DNA of 64,000 bases from Candidatus Eremiobacterota bacterium (lineage in GTDB: Bacteria > Vulcanimicrobiota > Vulcanimicrobiia > Vulcanimicrobiales > Vulcanimicrobiaceae). Every line of letters starts with the position of its first letter. Positions within the stretch are counted from its first letter, which is position 1. Below are positions 51,460-59,332 of the stretch, one piece after another. The position numbers were made by a program, and so were the translations under genes. The notes under the pieces were generated by a model, which did no database searches, was not told where the DNA came from, and saw nothing but the letters and a program-made list of their open reading frames with translations. The stretch lies in NCBI GenBank assembly GCA_019235885.1, contig JAFAKB010000076.1, positions 1 to 64,000 of the forward strand. The letters run 5' to 3'.

Positions 51460-52188
51460 GTGCGCGCGCTAGTCGTCGACGACGAGCCGCTGGTCCGCAG
51501 CGAGCTCGTCTACGCGCTGCGCAAGGCGGGCGGTGAGATCGAGATCGACGAGGCGCCCGACGCGGTGGAGGCGCTGCGCGTGATCGCCGGCGGCGCGTAC
51601 GACGTCGTCTTTCTCGACATCAGCCTGCCCGGCCTGAGCGGGCTCGAAGCGACGAAGGTGATCAATGCCCTCCCGTCAGCGCCGCAAGTGGTGTTCGTCA
51701 CCGCGCACGACACCCATGCGGTCGACGCGTTCGAGCTGGCGGCGTTCGACTACGTCGTCAAGCCGGTCTCGCAAGAGCGGCTCGCGCGCACCCTGGAGCG
51801 GCTGCGCGCGCAGCGGGAAACCACCGCTGTGCCGGCTGCCACGCCGAACGGCAACCTCGGCCGCGTCGCGCTCGAGGACGGTGAGCGCACGCGGCTAGTC
51901 AAGCTGGCTGAGATTCGCTACGTGCAGGCGAACGGCCACATCGTCACCGCGCGCACGTTCGACGGCGATTTGCGTTGGAAAGGCTCGCTCGCCGAAGCGG
52001 CGGCGCGGCTGGAGCCGGCCGGTTTCCTGCGCGTGCACCGCGCGTATCTGGTGAACCCGGAGCGCGTCGTCGAGGTCGAGCCGTTCTTCGGCGGCTCGTA
52101 TCTGCTGCGCGTCGACGACAAAGCGCGCAGCGAGGTGCCGATCTCGCGCAACTACTTTCCGACCGTGCGCAAAGCGCTCGGCTTGTGA
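51460..52188 (+). CDS. LytTR-family response regulator
   Basis: 242 aa. Receiver domain: ALVVDDEPLVRSEL, phospho-Asp in VVFLDISLPGLSG, VTAHDTHAVDAFELAAFDYVVKP. C-terminal LytTR DNA-binding domain: IRYVQANGHIVTARTFDG...LEPAGFLRVHRAYLVNPERV. The TGA overlaps the GTG of the GH47 gene (GTGA), an unusual coupling of regulator and enzyme. Confidence 0.93.
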   Translation: MRALVVDDEPLVRSELVYALRKAGGEIEIDEAPDAVEALRVIAGGAYDVVFLDISLPGLSGLEATKVINALPSAPQVVFVTAHDTHAVDAFELAAFDYVVKPVSQERLARTLERLRAQRETTAVPAATPNGNLGRVALEDGERTRLVKLAEIRYVQANGHIVTARTFDGDLRWKGSLAEAAARLEPAGFLRVHRAYLVNPERVVEVEPFFGGSYLLRVDDKARSEVPISRNYFPTVRKALGL

Positions 52189-53588
52189 AGCTGCGCCGCG
52201 GCGCGTTTCTCGCCGGGGCCGGCGGCGCCGTCGCGGCGCCTCTCGCAGCAGCGGCGCACCCGATCGGAGGCTATCGCCGCACGCCGGCCCCGCTAGAGAT
52301 CGCGCAGGCGGTGCGCGCCGAGTTCGTGCACGCCTGGAACGGCTACAAGCTGATCGCCTGGGGGCGTGACGAGGTGAAGCCGGTCGCGGGGACGACGAAC
52401 GACTTCTTCGTGGACGGCCGGACGTTCGGGCTGTCCATCGTCGAGGCGCTCGACACGCTGTACGTGATGGGGTTCGACGACGAGCTGGCGCGCTGCGTGC
52501 GCTGGATCGGCGATCACCTGGAGCTCGACGTCGACGCCGACGTGCAGATGTTCGAATGGGTCATCCGCATCGTCGGCGGGTTGCTCGCCGGCTACGCAGC
52601 GACCGGCGAGCGAATGCTGCTCGAGCGCGCGCGCGACGCGGCGGACCGCGTCCTGCCGTGCTTCGTGAAATCGCCGACCGGCGCGCCGTACCGGTACGCG
52701 AACCTGCGCACCGGCGCGGTGCGCGAGCCGGCGATGAACCTCGCCGAGATCGGCAGCAACATCCTGGAATTCGGCGAGCTCACGCGGCTCACCGGCGACC
52801 CGAAGTACATGCGGGCATCAAAGCGCGCCTACGAAGCGGTAATCGCGAAGCGCTCGGGGCTGAACCTGCTCGCGACGTACTTCGACGTGGAGAAAGGCGC
52901 GTTCAGCAAGAACGTCGACGTCGCGCCGAACCCGCCGGTCGACTCGTTCTACGAGTACCTGTGGGGCGGGTGGGCGATGTTCGGCGACGCGCAGTGCCGC
53001 GACTGGTACCGCATGCTGACCGACGCGATCCTCAAGCACCAAGCGGACCGCACCACCGTCCGAGGCCGGCTGTGGTTCCGCCAAGTCGACTACCAGACGG
53101 GTGCGCCGGCCGGGACGCGGCAGGTCGAGCTGGCCGCGTTCTACGCGGAGCTGCTCGCGAAGGGCGGCGACCGCGAAGCCGGCTCGGACTACTACGACTC
53201 GTGGACCTCGGTCTCGGACCGCTACGAGATCATCCCGGAAGTCTTCGACTACGCGAGCGGCGCGGTGAGCGCGCCGAGCAACGAGCTGCGCCCGGAGTAC
53301 GCGAACGCCGCCTTCGACCTGTGGTTCCTGACCCGCGACGAGAAGTATCGCAACACCGCGTACCGCCACTTTCTCGCGATACGCGAGCACTGCCGCGTCG
53401 CGAACGGCTACACGATCGTCGACGACGTCCGCCCGCGCCCGATGAAGCTGGGCGATCTCTTCCCCGCCTACTCGTTCGCGGAGAACTTCAAATACCTGTA
53501 CCTGATGTTCGCCGAACCGCGGCGCTTCGACGCCGCGAACTACTACTTGAGCACCGAAGGAAAAGTGCTGCGCGGCTTGAGACGCTAA
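52185..53588 (+). CDS. Glycoside hydrolase family 47 (alpha-1,2-mannosidase type), exported
   Basis: 467 aa. N-terminal LRRGAFLAGAGGAVAAPLAAAA looks like a Tat or Sec signal. GH47 blocks in order: WNGYKLIAWGRDEVKPV, DGRTFGLSIVEALDTLYVMGF, FEWVIRIVGGLLAGYA, NLAEIGSNILEFGELTRLTGDPKY, DSFYEYLWGGW, NELRPEYANAAFDLWFLT and FAENFKYLYLMF. GH47 is mainly eukaryotic, with few bacterial members. It may trim mannose from external glycans under LytS/LytTR control (inference). Confidence 0.88.
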   Translation: MKLRRGAFLAGAGGAVAAPLAAAAHPIGGYRRTPAPLEIAQAVRAEFVHAWNGYKLIAWGRDEVKPVAGTTNDFFVDGRTFGLSIVEALDTLYVMGFDDELARCVRWIGDHLELDVDADVQMFEWVIRIVGGLLAGYAATGERMLLERARDAADRVLPCFVKSPTGAPYRYANLRTGAVREPAMNLAEIGSNILEFGELTRLTGDPKYMRASKRAYEAVIAKRSGLNLLATYFDVEKGAFSKNVDVAPNPPVDSFYEYLWGGWAMFGDAQCRDWYRMLTDAILKHQADRTTVRGRLWFRQVDYQTGAPAGTRQVELAAFYAELLAKGGDREAGSDYYDSWTSVSDRYEIIPEVFDYASGAVSAPSNELRPEYANAAFDLWFLTRDEKYRNTAYRHFLAIREHCRVANGYTIVDDVRPRPMKLGDLFPAYSFAENFKYLYLMFAEPRRFDAANYYLSTEGKVLRGLRR

Positions 53589-53594
53589 TCCGCA

Positions 53595-54569
53595 TTATGA
53601 GCATTGCGCCGCCCGCGGCTCAACCGGCACGATAGACTCCAGCGGTTCTCCGGCGATGAAGCGCTGCAGGTTGCGGGTGACGAGCGCGAGGATGCGGCGC
53701 GGCGCGACGTCGCCGCCGTAGCCGGCTACGTGCGGGGTGATCAGCACGTTCGGCAACGTCCAGAGCGGGTCGTCCGCGGGGAGCGGCTCGGGCTCGGTCA
53801 CGTCGAGGGCGGCGCCGCCGATGCGTCGTTCGCTCAGCGCGGTGCGCAGCGCGTCGTGGTCGACGACGCCGCCGCGCGCGACGTTGATGAGGATCGCGTG
53901 CGGCTGCATCGCGGCGAGCGCGCCCGCGCCGACGAGGTGCCGCGTCTGCGCGCCGAGCGGGACGGCGAGCACGACCGCATCGCTGCGTGCGAGGACCTCG
54001 TGCAACTCGGTGCTCGGCGCGGCTTCGTCGCAGAGCGGATCCGCGCGCCCGCTGCGTGTCACCGCGACGATGTGCGCGCCGCAGCCGCGCAGCCGCTGGG
54101 CGACGGCGCGGCCGATGTTGCCGAAACCGATCACCGCGACCCTCGCGTCGTTCAGCGTGCCGATCCGCACGGCGTTCGACTGATCCCAGATGTTGCGCTC
54201 TTGGTTGCGGACCGCTTCAGGGATGCGCCGCAGCAGCGCGAGGAGCATCGCGAGCGCGTGCTCGGCGACGGTCGGTGCGTACGCGTCGCCGGCCGACGTG
54301 ACGGTCACGCCGGGCGGGACGCCGTGCAGCTCGACCGGATCGTAGCCCATCGTCGGAAGCTGCACCCAGCGCAGGCGCGGCGCGTTCCGCTCGAGCGTCG
54401 CGACCAACGCGGCGTCGTAGAACGCGGGCCAGGCCCACAGCGCGTCGGCGTCGGCGAGCTCGCGGTGCATCGCCTCGGCGTCGGTGACGGCGACGCTCTC
54501 GACGCCGTGCGCGGCGGCGAGGGCTTCGAACTGGGGCGCCAGGACGTGGGTTCGTATCACGACGCGCAT
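53595..54569 (-). CDS. D-isomer-specific 2-hydroxyacid dehydrogenase
   Basis: 324 aa from the ATG at 54569. NAD-binding GFGNIGRAVAQRLRGCGAHIVAV (about 145-167), ILINVARGGVVDHDALRTAL with the conserved Arg, TEPEPLPADDPLWTLPNVLITPHVAG with Glu and catalytic His. The N-terminal catalytic half is typical. Substrate unknown; phosphoglycerate dehydrogenase or glyoxylate/hydroxypyruvate reductase-like enzymes share this pattern. Confidence 0.9.
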   Translation of the reverse strand: MRVVIRTHVLAPQFEALAAAHGVESVAVTDAEAMHRELADADALWAWPAFYDAALVATLERNAPRLRWVQLPTMGYDPVELHGVPPGVTVTSAGDAYAPTVAEHALAMLLALLRRIPEAVRNQERNIWDQSNAVRIGTLNDARVAVIGFGNIGRAVAQRLRGCGAHIVAVTRSGRADPLCDEAAPSTELHEVLARSDAVVLAVPLGAQTRHLVGAGALAAMQPHAILINVARGGVVDHDALRTALSERRIGGAALDVTEPEPLPADDPLWTLPNVLITPHVAGYGGDVAPRRILALVTRNLQRFIAGEPLESIVPVEPRAAQCS

Positions 54570-54678: not shown

Positions 54679-55641
54679 ATGGCACGCTCACAGACGATGA
54701 CGAACGACCTTGCCGGCGTCGCGCAGCTGCTGGTCTCCGGCGGGCGCGGGATCATGGTGCTCGACGAGCCGCCGCAGAGCTGCAACGCGCGCTTCGCGCG
54801 GCTCGGCATCGCGCCGACCGCGGAGCAGCGGCGCGCATACCGCGAGCTGCTGATCGACGCGCCGGGCATCGAGCGCTACGTCTCGGGCGCGGTCCTCGAC
54901 GACGAGACGATCCGCCGCGGCACCGCCGACGGACGCCGCTTCGTCGACGTGCTGCGCGCGCGCGGGATCGTGCCGGGGATTCGCCTCGAAGCGAGCAACG
55001 CCAACCTCGCCGAATACGCCGCGCTCGGCGCGGGTATCGCCGCGATGCGCGGCGACGCGCCGACGCTCGCGCGCTTCGCCGCGCGCTGCCAGCAGAGCGG
55101 GATCGTCCCGGTCATCGAGCCCGACGTTCCGAGCGACGGCGAAGAGACGCTCGAGGAATGCGCGCAGGTTACCTCACGCGCGCTGCGCCGGCTGTTCGCG
55201 GAGCTGGCCGAGGCAGAGGTCGCGTTCGAGGCGCTGATCCTGACCACGAACATGATCGCGCCGGGGACGGCGTCGGGACAACATGTTTCGACCGCCGACG
55301 TCGTCTCCGCGACGCTTCGAGTGCTCGGCGCGACGGTTCCCGTCGCGGTCGCCGGGGTTGCGTTCGTCGCGGGCGCGCAGCACGATCACCTCGCCGCCGA
55401 GCGGCTGTGCGCGCTCAACAAGACGATGCCGCGCCGCCGCCCTTGGCCGCTGACGTTCACGTACGACCGCGCCCTGCAGCAAGCCGTGCTGGTCGCGTGG
55501 CGCGGCCGCGCCGAGCACACCGCGGAAGCGCAGCGCGTGCTGCTCCACCGCGCGCACTGCAACGGCCTTGCCGCCTGCGGCGCCTACACCTCGAAGATCG
55601 AGGACCAGTTCGAGACGTTCGTCCCGCCGCTCGCCGCGTAG
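54679..55641 (+). CDS. Class I fructose-bisphosphate aldolase homologue lacking the Schiff-base lysine
   Basis: 320 aa. Family blocks are clear: LLVSGGRGIMVLDEPPQSCNARF, ARFAARCQQSGIVPVIEPDVPSDG, PWPLTFTYDRALQQAVLVAW, NGLAACGAYTSK. In muscle aldolase the Schiff-base Lys229 lies in LLKPNM; here the aligned segment is ILTTNM, with Thr189 in its place. GIKVDKG (Lys107) is GIRLEAS, and the segment that carries Lys146 is shortened. It is therefore unlikely to work as a standard aldolase. Alternative start at ATG 54697. Confidence 0.85.
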   Translation: MARSQTMTNDLAGVAQLLVSGGRGIMVLDEPPQSCNARFARLGIAPTAEQRRAYRELLIDAPGIERYVSGAVLDDETIRRGTADGRRFVDVLRARGIVPGIRLEASNANLAEYAALGAGIAAMRGDAPTLARFAARCQQSGIVPVIEPDVPSDGEETLEECAQVTSRALRRLFAELAEAEVAFEALILTTNMIAPGTASGQHVSTADVVSATLRVLGATVPVAVAGVAFVAGAQHDHLAAERLCALNKTMPRRRPWPLTFTYDRALQQAVLVAWRGRAEHTAEAQRVLLHRAHCNGLAACGAYTSKIEDQFETFVPPLAA

Positions 55642-55742: not shown

Positions 55743-57233
55743 TCAGCCGGTAGCGTAGCCGGCGATCGTTGAAATCGCCTGCATTCCCGGCAAGTACACG
55801 TACGCGCTGCCGCGCGTGCGAACGAAGTTGGTGAAGCCCGGCACCGGCGAAGCGCTGAGCGTGAAGACATTGGTCTTCATCGTCGGCGGCGGCGGCGGCA
55901 TGACCGTTGTGAACGTCCACGGCCCCGTCGTCAGGTTGTGCCCGATCACCGGATCGGCGGGATCGCGGCTCGCGGGGTACGGCAGACCGCTCGACGATCC
56001 GCCGTTGACCCACGTCTCCATGAGAAACTCGAACGAGTCGCGCAAGCTTGCGCCGATGAAGAAACCCATCAGGCCGCGTTCGCCGGTGTTGCGGTCGTTC
56101 GGATCGTAGGGAAGCTGGTACGGCATCGCGCGGCGCATGATGCGGTGGCGCGAGGGCAGGTCTTCGACAGTCGTGTTGCGCGGGTTGTTGCGCCGAATGT
56201 GCGAGCTGTACGGGCAGTCCGAGCCGCCCTTGTCGGTGTAGAGAAAGTCGTTGATCTCATCGCTTGGAAGATCGGGCGGAAGCGTCTGCCGGCCCTTCAC
56301 CGGGTCGATCGCGACCGGCGTTCCGTTCGCCGGCCAGCGCCCGACCAGCAACGCCTTCATCGCGTCACCGGCGATTGCCGGGGACGTTCCGTAGAGTGAG
56401 GCGATCCTGTCGCGCTGGCCCTCGACGAACGCTTCGAACTCCTCGACCTTCTGCTCGAGCATGCGGAACGCCGCGAAGCTGCCATGTAGCCCGATCCCCG
56501 GCGGTTTGTTTCCGCCGGGGAGGTTGACGTTTTGGAAGTACGTCGTCGTCGCCGTGCCGAGAATGAACGCGCCGTTGTCGACCGGCTGCTGGTTGCCGTC
56601 GGGGCGCTTGTAGTACGGGTCGATCGAGAGGATCGGCTGCGCGATCCCGTCGCGGTACCCGAAGTAGATCATATCGTGAAGCAAGTCTTGCGACGTGAGT
56701 TCCTGCTGGATCTCGAACCCCGCCGCGAGCAACGCGCGCAGCTCGACGCTCGCCGCCTCGAGCGTCGCCAGGTCCTTCGCCCACAGCGCCAGCATGACGT
56801 CGAAGTTGCGGTCGTCGACGATCCAGTTGCTCGGCGCGCTGTCGGCGACGTCGCCGATCGTCGGCGCACTCGCCGCGGAGCCGTTCATGAACGGCGTGTG
56901 CGAGGGCGAACCGAACCACGCCGGCGAGCTCAGCGTCGCCGCGGGGATCCCGAAGCTGGCCAACCCGTTGAACGAGAAGCCGATGTTCAGACAGGTCGCC
57001 GGCGTGCTCGGGCCCCAATCGGCAGACGAGCGAATTTGGAAATCGGGAACCGAGCCGTCGACGAGGCTGCGCACGAGCGTTCCCGCGGCGGTTCGATCGC
57101 GCACGACCAGCACGAAGTAGCGCGCGAAGGTCGGTTCGCCGAGCCGGTAGCCGCGCATGACGATTCCCTGAACGTCCGGCAAGACGTCCGAGAGAAACTG
57201 CGCCGCCACCGCACCCCGAACGGCGCGGCTCAT
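55743..57233 (-). CDS. DyP-type heme peroxidase family protein
   Basis: 496 aa. YFGYRDGIAQP holds the catalytic Asp of the G-x-x-D-G motif; CPYSSHIRRNNPR carries the proximal His in the form seen in long (class C/D-like) DyP proteins; LPSRHRIMRRAMPY and ERGLMGFFIGASLRDSFEFLMETW also match. No signal peptide is evident. It oxidises dyes or phenolics with peroxide in known members. The start overlaps the preceding gene's stop (ATGA), so the two are made together. Confidence 0.85.
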   Translation of the reverse strand: MSRAVRGAVAAQFLSDVLPDVQGIVMRGYRLGEPTFARYFVLVVRDRTAAGTLVRSLVDGSVPDFQIRSSADWGPSTPATCLNIGFSFNGLASFGIPAATLSSPAWFGSPSHTPFMNGSAASAPTIGDVADSAPSNWIVDDRNFDVMLALWAKDLATLEAASVELRALLAAGFEIQQELTSQDLLHDMIYFGYRDGIAQPILSIDPYYKRPDGNQQPVDNGAFILGTATTTYFQNVNLPGGNKPPGIGLHGSFAAFRMLEQKVEEFEAFVEGQRDRIASLYGTSPAIAGDAMKALLVGRWPANGTPVAIDPVKGRQTLPPDLPSDEINDFLYTDKGGSDCPYSSHIRRNNPRNTTVEDLPSRHRIMRRAMPYQLPYDPNDRNTGERGLMGFFIGASLRDSFEFLMETWVNGGSSSGLPYPASRDPADPVIGHNLTTGPWTFTTVMPPPPPTMKTNVFTLSASPVPGFTNFVRTRGSAYVYLPGMQAISTIAGYATG

Positions 57234-57727
57234 TCGGGCGGGTTACCAGGTCCGCCGAGGCAGGTCAGGATGTCGACGACGCCCCAGTAGTAACCTTGGA
57301 AGACCGGCGTGACCACGCCGCCGTTGCCCTCCGAAGGATCGCGCTGGGCCAGGTCGTTCGCTTGAACCCAGGCGATGAAATTGTTCAAGCGCGAGGGATC
57401 GGTCGCAGAGTAGACGGGATAGAGATCCTCCGCTCCGACGATCAAGTTTTGGACGGCGTAGTTGAACGGCGCCGGGTTCGCCTGCACGAGGATCGCGATG
57501 TACTTGGCGAAGTCGAGGTCGTACGCGGTCGTGAGCAGCACCCAGTTGCCGGGCGGCGCGGTCTGCGGCGGCAGCACGGTCGCCCACGCGTAGTGCAAGA
57601 TCTGCGTCGACTCGTTGGTGTCGTCGCTCGCGCCGTCGCCGGATTGCGGGACGAAGAGCGTCTGGAACCGAGGCTCCTGCTGCGGCGGAACCTTCGCCTG
57701 GAACAGAAGCGAAAGAAAATTGGCCAT
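57230..57727 (-). CDS. Hypothetical partner of the DyP-type peroxidase
   Basis: 165 aa, ATG with AGGGG 7 nt upstream. NWVLLTTAYDLDFAKYIAILVQANPAPFNYAVQNLIVGAEDLYPVY looks like a ferredoxin-like alpha/beta domain, the same kind of fold that forms DyP halves; VFQGYYWGVVDIL lies near the end. No cofactor motif. Its constant coupling to the peroxidase suggests a subunit or cargo-type partner (inference). Confidence 0.6.
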   Translation of the reverse strand: MANFLSLLFQAKVPPQQEPRFQTLFVPQSGDGASDDTNESTQILHYAWATVLPPQTAPPGNWVLLTTAYDLDFAKYIAILVQANPAPFNYAVQNLIVGAEDLYPVYSATDPSRLNNFIAWVQANDLAQRDPSEGNGGVVTPVFQGYYWGVVDILTCLGGPGNPPE

Positions 57728-57820
57728 GCATAACCCCTGATGCGGCTGACGAGGACCAAGACGATCGCTCGGACGAGCACCGTTAGGGGAGCGGGCGAAT
57801 TCTCCTACGAACGGGGGCCC

Positions 57821-59332
57821 ATGTCGTTTTTCGCCGACCTGTTCGCCACGAGCTCGGTCGAGAAGTTGCGGGAAATGAGCCGGAGCAAGAAGCTCCGGCG
57901 CGCGCTCACCGCGAAGGACCTGGTCGCGATCGGGCTCGGGACGATGATCGGGGGCGGAATTTTCACGACCATCGGGACTGGTGTCAAAGGCGCCGGCCCG
58001 GCCGTCATCGTCTCGTACCTGTTCGCGGGGCTCACCTCGTTTTTCGCGGCGCTCTGCTACGCCGAGCTCGGTGCGATGGTGCCGGTCGCCGGCAGCGCCT
58101 ATACGTACGCATACGCGACGCTCGGGAAGCTGTTCGCCTGGATCATCGGCTTCGCGCTGATCTTCGAGTACGGGATCAGTGCGGCGCCGGTCGCGCAGCA
58201 GTTCTCGGCCGCGCTGCAGGACGTGCTCAAGACGGTCGGGATCGCGCTGCCGGCGTGGGGGCAGACCTCGAACCTGGTGATTCATGGCGCGTGGTGGCTG
58301 CCCGGCTCGTACGACCTCGCGCACTCGCAGTTCGACGTGCTCGGCGCGGTGTTCGTGCTCGGGCTCTCGATCCTGCTCTCGATCGGCATCCGCGAGTCGG
58401 CGACGACGAACAACATCTTCGTCGTGCTGAAGATCTCCGCGCTCATCGTGTTCATCATCGCCGGCGCCTTCTTGTTCCACGCGGCGAATTTGCACGACTT
58501 CAACCCGAAGGGCTGGGGCGCGCTGGTGCCGTTCGGCGGCGCGGTCGAGAACGCGCAGACCGGAATCATCCCGATCGCCGCCTACGTGTTCTTCAGCTAC
58601 ATCGGCTTCGACACGGCGACGACGACGGCGGAAGAGACGAAGAACCCCGCGCGCGACGTGCCGCTGGGCGTGATCGGCGCGCTCGCGATCGGGACGCTGA
58701 TCTACTGCGCGACGGCGATCGTGCTGCTCGGCGCGCTGCCGTGGGCGCAAGTTCCCGAGAAGAACCCACTGGTCACCGCGCTCGCGCCGCTGCACTTTCC
58801 GGTGCTGAACTGGGTGATCACGATCGGCGTGCTGGCGGGGACGACCAGCGTCGCGCTCGCCTCGCTGCTGGGACAGGCCCGCATCTTCTACGTGATGGGG
58901 CGCGACAAGATGCTGCCGCCGGCCGTCGCGGAGATCCACCCGCGCTTCAAGACGCCGGTCCGCTCGACCATGTTCACCGGGGTCGCGGTCGCGATCCTCG
59001 CGCTCATTGTCCCGCTGAACCAGCTGCTCAATCTGGTGAACATTGGGACGCTGATCGCGTTCACCGTCGTGTGCGCCGGGGTGCTGTACCTGCGCCGCCG
59101 CAAGCCCGACATCCCGCGCAGCTTCCGCGTGCCGTTCGTCCCGCTGTTCCCGATTCTCGGGATTCTGATGTCGTTGTTCCTGGCGGTCTTCGGCCTCTCG
59201 CGCGACACCTGGATCTGGTTCGCCACCGCGCTGGTCGTCGGCTTGGTCTTTTTCTTCAGCTACGGATTTCGGACGTCGAAGCCGGAGCAGATCGAGTTCG
59301 TCGAAGAGCCCGAAGCGCTGGAGCTCGCATAG
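57821..59332 (+). CDS. APC-family amino acid permease
   Basis: 503 aa from the ATG at 57821. About 12-13 membrane helices. Signature LVAIGLGTMIGGGIFTTIGTGVKGAGPAVIVSYLFAGLTSFFAALCYAELGAMVPVAGSAYTYAY; later IIPIAAYVFFSYIGFDTATTTAEETKNPARDVPLGVIGAL (CAT-type). It probably imports cationic or other amino acids. It is followed by TMEM175, Nudix and MmcQ genes in one direction. Confidence 0.92.
   Translation: MSFFADLFATSSVEKLREMSRSKKLRRALTAKDLVAIGLGTMIGGGIFTTIGTGVKGAGPAVIVSYLFAGLTSFFAALCYAELGAMVPVAGSAYTYAYATLGKLFAWIIGFALIFEYGISAAPVAQQFSAALQDVLKTVGIALPAWGQTSNLVIHGAWWLPGSYDLAHSQFDVLGAVFVLGLSILLSIGIRESATTNNIFVVLKISALIVFIIAGAFLFHAANLHDFNPKGWGALVPFGGAVENAQTGIIPIAAYVFFSYIGFDTATTTAEETKNPARDVPLGVIGALAIGTLIYCATAIVLLGALPWAQVPEKNPLVTALAPLHFPVLNWVITIGVLAGTTSVALASLLGQARIFYVMGRDKMLPPAVAEIHPRFKTPVRSTMFTGVAVAILALIVPLNQLLNLVNIGTLIAFTVVCAGVLYLRRRKPDIPRSFRVPFVPLFPILGILMSLFLAVFGLSRDTWIWFATALVVGLVFFFSYGFRTSKPEQIEFVEEPEALELA

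Follow-up and report, generated by a model that had tools for sequence, protein, structure and literature searches.

The window, the whole 64,000-nucleotide stretch of DNA analyzed here, comes from a soil bacterium of the little-studied phylum Eremiobacterota and encodes a homolog of the class I aldolases (class I FBA), here called pFBA, which lacks the three catalytic lysines of that family. We consider it probable that pFBA is a pseudoenzyme, that it arose from an aldolase of the Calvin cycle, and that it has been retained for a non-aldolase role, probably binding; most likely it was kept in this capacity once the Calvin cycle had been abandoned in its lineage. The chief uncertainty is whether the gene is constrained by a function that it has now or is decaying slowly under partial constraint.

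Catalytic residues of the window protein

The pFBA frame has a strong coding composition (GC1/2/3 = 0.74/0.52/0.91) and its product is homologous near full length to the class I FBAs (PF00274, NF033379), as represented by the structures 1zah, 5o0w (Trypanosoma congolense), and 3mmt (Bartonella). The match to PF00274 scores 271 bits (E 1.4e-80; gathering score 22.2) and that to NF033379, the NCBIfam equivalog model for class I FBA, 281 bits (cut-off 250). The same equivalog model scores two other lysine-less sequences, L047:8169-9224 and L050:8446-9474, at 362 and 303, respectively. Membership of the DhnA-type (PF01791) or class II FBA (PF01116) families was considered and rejected for the window protein, as only PF00274 matched it at E ≤ 0.1. 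The gene and its key codons are listed below, reference residues being numbered after rabbit aldolase A (1zah).

54679..55641, + strand: pFBA, class I FBA homolog without catalytic lysines, 320 aa (open frame, PF00274, NF033379, model)
54763..54765, + strand: Asp29, equivalent to rabbit D33, kept (alignment)
54982..54984, + strand: Arg102, replaces K107 (alignment)
55042..55044, + strand: Ala122, replaces K146, in strand beta4 (alignment and model)
55117..55119, + strand: Glu147, equivalent to E187, kept (alignment)
55243..55245, + strand: Thr189, replaces the Schiff-base lysine K229 (alignment)
55369..55371, + strand: Ala231, replaces the phosphate-binding S271 (alignment)
55465..55467, + strand: Asp263, replaces G302 of the phosphate site; the adjoining Arg264, equivalent to R303, is kept (alignment)

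A preliminary description of this gene, made from the sequence alone, had claimed that the Schiff-base lysine segment LLKPNM reads ILTTNM, that GIKVDKG reads GIRLEAS, and that the region holding Lys146 is shortened, and the alignment confirms each of these observations. K229 corresponds to Thr189 and K107 to Arg102, while the shortening around K146 resolves into two in-frame deletions, one of 19 residues and the other of 16. Strand beta4 itself is still present, reading GAGIAAMR for GADFAKWR, with K146 replaced by Ala122 and R148 kept. Further changes are S35 to Pro and Y173 to Phe, and the phosphate site formed by S271, G272, G302, and R303 has become Ala, Gly, Asp, and Arg. pFBA therefore has the barrel of the class I FBAs, many of their structural invariant residues, and a score above the equivalog cut-off, but differs from them in the absence of all three lysines, the replacement of Ser271 and Gly302, and the deletion of 35 catalytic-face loop residues.

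Orthologs in the genus and the constraint acting on them

Our sample of the genus comprised 11 genomes, with the window genome designated G000. pFBA is present in five of these (G000, G003, G004, G005, and G008) and an intact PF00274 aldolase in two (G006 and G010); no genome has both and four have neither, single gene absences being weak evidence because several of the genomes are 73–86% complete. The lysine loss is not an accident of assembly, since the four other pFBA genes are orthologs at the same locus that also lack the Schiff-base lysine. The preliminary description had listed a regulator among the possible roles; no second PF00274 protein was found in the window genome, which makes it unlikely that pFBA regulates an active paralog of the same family. 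When 149 genomes from the phylum were searched, the only strong matches beyond the genus came from the same taxonomic family, and those that were aligned have intact lysines. A search of genome contigs with the single window protein gave no match, and a search with a five-row alignment gave, among the matches listed, the G008 and G004 contigs and one gene from an actinobacterium, whose lysines are intact.

K229 and S271 are lost in all five orthologs (T/Q/Q/A/A at position 229), as is K107 in the four with a readable residue at that position (R, T, A, E), the G004 gene being cut by a contig end that leaves its N-terminal positions unread. Position 146 reads A/K/K/T/R across the five. There is no lysine common to all of the orthologs and the window protein has only two, K248, which aligns to the loop that leads into strand 8, and K306, which aligns to the C-terminus, neither of them at a catalytic position; on these grounds Schiff-base chemistry by the window protein is ruled out as far as sequence allows. 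A residual aldolase using a displaced lysine, the finding that the preliminary description had named as contrary to its proposal, could draw on the K146 that G008 and G004 keep, but the same lysine counts make it highly improbable.

The window protein also retains D33, R42, R148, E187, and R303, which is consistent with a lysine-independent reaction carried out in the old pocket through D33, R148, and E187, in line with the earlier suggestion of a new chemistry. However, no active site common to the orthologs can be drawn: G004 has Val in place of E187, G003 lacks D33 through a deletion, S271 is lost throughout, and R303 (R/G/S/A/P) is lost in four of the five. As active-site positions vary freely between the orthologs, we consider this explanation quite improbable. 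When the five proteins are pooled, retention is 24 of 52 for catalytic or substrate residues vs. 268 of 365 for other invariant residues (P = 1.5e-4, with related rows treated as independent); the difference does not reach significance in the window protein by itself.

The differences at the active site, along with ortholog lengths that range from 352 down to 262 aa (the latter in G003), are also what would be expected of a relict in slow decay, that is, a former Calvin-cycle aldolase, weakly useful or recently useless, that erodes through in-frame deletions and drift at the active site and is then deleted. On the other side, no stop or frameshift was found in any of the five orthologs as far as they were read, and all five frames are open. 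The dN/dS comparison among relatives that the preliminary description had recommended bears directly on this explanation. Using a purpose-written GY94 likelihood program, a one-ratio model for the five orthologs gave an omega of 0.09, but with saturated synonymous distances. Because saturation compromises free-branch estimates, we fixed branch lengths using the neighboring transporter and nudix genes. With this calibration, omega on the terminal branches was 0.15 (G000), 0.05 (G008), 0.22 (G004), 0.18 (G005), and 0.32 (G003), with likelihood ratios against omega 1 of 60–296, and the window branch gave 0.158 with four calibration genes; the short internal branch leading to G003 and G005 had an omega of 0.62 (likelihood ratio 4.0). 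The corresponding terminal-branch values for neighbor genes were 0.02–0.07 and 0.085–0.14, and the intact aldolases of G006 and G010 had an omega of 0.095 by a similar method.

pFBA is under purifying selection, looser than that on its neighbors, as its dN/dS is mostly 1.5–4 times that of the flanking genes. The excess over the neighbors, and the absence of the gene from other congeners, agree with slow decay. However, omega is far below 1 on every terminal branch, and the constraint measured since the split of G008 (0.05) and G004 (0.22) has acted on a protein without a Schiff-base lysine, since both lack K229 and S271. We consequently regard slow decay, the principal competing explanation, as rather unlikely, and a pseudogene under relaxed selection is likewise disfavored by terminal dN/dS values of 0.05–0.32 and the five open frames. 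The preliminary description was right that selection persists, and the term pseudoenzyme fits a protein whose Schiff-base residues are gone while purifying selection continues. Of its alternatives, a new chemistry in the old pocket is not supported and a regulator of an active PF00274 paralog is unlikely; it made no mention of the looser constraint or of the absence of the gene from congeners.

Locus and Calvin-cycle context

The genes flanking pFBA in the window are as follows.

53595..54569, − strand: divergent D-2-hydroxyacid dehydrogenase; the same neighbor is found in G008
55743..57233, − strand: Dyp-type-peroxidase-like gene that separates pFBA from the transporter; none was found next to pFBA in congeners
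57821..59332, + strand: APC amino-acid transporter, a neighbor of pFBA in 5/5 genomes

In the other four genomes the transporter gene lies about 40–75 bp downstream of pFBA; separation of the two by the Dyp-type-peroxidase-like gene and a small gene (55743-57733) is seen in the window genome only. The two flanking genes, for the dehydrogenase and the transporter, are 85–88 bp apart in G010 and G009 with no gene in between, and in G006 the slot between them, where G000 and G008 have pFBA, is filled by a PRK/uridine-kinase-family gene (L057:6871-7791). With nothing in the slot in two congeners and a different gene there in a third, pFBA is evidently dispensable. In G005 a relative (72%) is situated beyond the transporter gene. 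Upstream in the window, between a response regulator and the dehydrogenase, is a gene without an NCBIfam match (52188-53588) that occurs in 5 of 11 congeners. A promoter scan gave nothing useful.

Phylogenetic analysis placed the five pFBA proteins in one group (support 100/99), whose sister group comprises the intact aldolases from G006 and G010 (support 93/94). These sister proteins keep all of the lysines, are encoded at another locus, and belong to the genomes with clear RuBisCO matches: G006 and G010 are the only two with matches of 445–455 bits, while elsewhere in the genus matches score 44–62 bits, except in G003 (210 bits) and G007 (none). The G003 match, to the RuBisCO large chain (G003:C54:2876-3712), falls between the true (~450 bits) and weak (44–62 bits) levels. 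In both G006 and G010 the intact aldolase gene adjoins that for phosphoribulokinase (NF011997, scoring 490 bits in G010); a transketolase gene is also beside it in G006. Based on the tree and these gene neighbors, we infer that pFBA descends from the Calvin-cycle aldolase of autotrophs within the genus. A complete Calvin cycle with a type IE RuBisCO is known in the same phylum from the 3.50-Mb genome of the cultured Vulcanimicrobium alpinus WC8-2 (PMC9758169).

No class II FBA was found in the genus. Aldolases of the DhnA type (PF01791) are class I enzymes that also act through a Schiff base. Matches to this family occur in 11/11 genomes, and in the member encoded elsewhere in the window genome the lysine is kept, aligning with K177 of the Thermoproteus tenax FBA (1ojx); it is of a different family and is not a relative of pFBA. 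The general need for an aldolase is plausibly met by this DhnA-type enzyme.

Structure, probable role, and meaning

The AlphaFold model of the window protein, built from a 19-row alignment, has eight barrel strands (pLDDT 91.2) and is closest in the PDB to class I FBAs (TM 0.86–0.90), aldolase homologs in the input alignments of our models favoring an aldolase fold. The 262-aa G003 protein, which has lost ~84 residues relative to G006 through eight deletions, is also modeled with eight strands (pLDDT 91.4). We counted 13 deletions in total, two in G000, three in G005, and eight in G003, and as we read the alignment all would fall in beta-to-alpha connections on the catalytic face; this placement is suggestive only, because by a hand estimate from the model such connections make up about three-quarters of the loop length. 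Among the deleted loops is a region that would form one of the tetramer contacts. That the deletions leave all barrel strands intact in the models nevertheless argues against slow decay, as does the fact that some segments are better conserved than in active homologs: the full-length pFBA proteins are more conserved than intact homologs at residues 194–218, 244–268, and 294–318.

Twenty-one positions are invariant in the pFBA clade but rare in intact homologs, and eight of these are Arg. They include the following.

54874..54963, + strand: stretch with the codons of the clade-conserved Arg66 (54874), Arg93 (54955), and Arg95 (54961), immediately ahead of strands 2 and 3
55432..55440, + strand: clade-conserved Arg252-254 (PRRRPW), just before strand 8

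By barrel topology, R66, R93, R95, and R252-254 are predicted to lie on the side of the barrel facing away from the former active site. The arginine enrichment may be due in part to the replacement of Lys in very GC-rich genomes, and the net charge of pFBA is not raised.

We envisage that the ancestor of pFBA was an aldolase working in the Calvin cycle of the genus's autotrophic members, and that the copy beside the transporter gene would have lost K229, K107, and S271. The simplest placement of these losses is in an ancestor shared by the five, within a lineage that could obtain aldolase activity from a separate DhnA-type enzyme. Trimming and variation would then have affected the catalytic face, with retention of the barrel, of the conserved segments near residues 194–218, 244–268, and 294–306, and of the opposite-face arginines. 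Less firmly, pFBA may now act by binding rather than catalysis; a putative binding role is favored because the catalytic face is deleted and varied, segments of the protein are conserved, and the arginines are predicted to be on the opposite face. As to how it would act, the mechanism we favor, very tentatively, is the binding of a partner or polyanion at the arginine face, perhaps tied to the co-located amino-acid transporter. Equally tentative is the idea that pFBA represents a genus-level binding or scaffold family, with its functional surface opposite the old active site and the catalytic face pared back to a minimal barrel of 262 aa.

In having an enzyme fold, a lost catalytic motif, and a retained gene, pFBA resembles pseudoenzymes in general. 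Aldolases are not mentioned in a review of pseudoenzymes (PMC10211241), and no described class I FBA pseudoenzyme was found in the literature searched. An immediate consequence concerns annotation, as automatic assignment via NF033379 will label the three lysine-less proteins as active aldolases, and since their equivalog scores are above the cut-off, metabolic reconstructions would wrongly credit pFBA with a glycolytic or Calvin-cycle step. Beyond this, the five orthologs, at differing stages in the loss of the catalytic face, together with their intact sisters constitute a natural series within one genus, which serves the question of what keeps an enzyme fold once its chemistry is gone.
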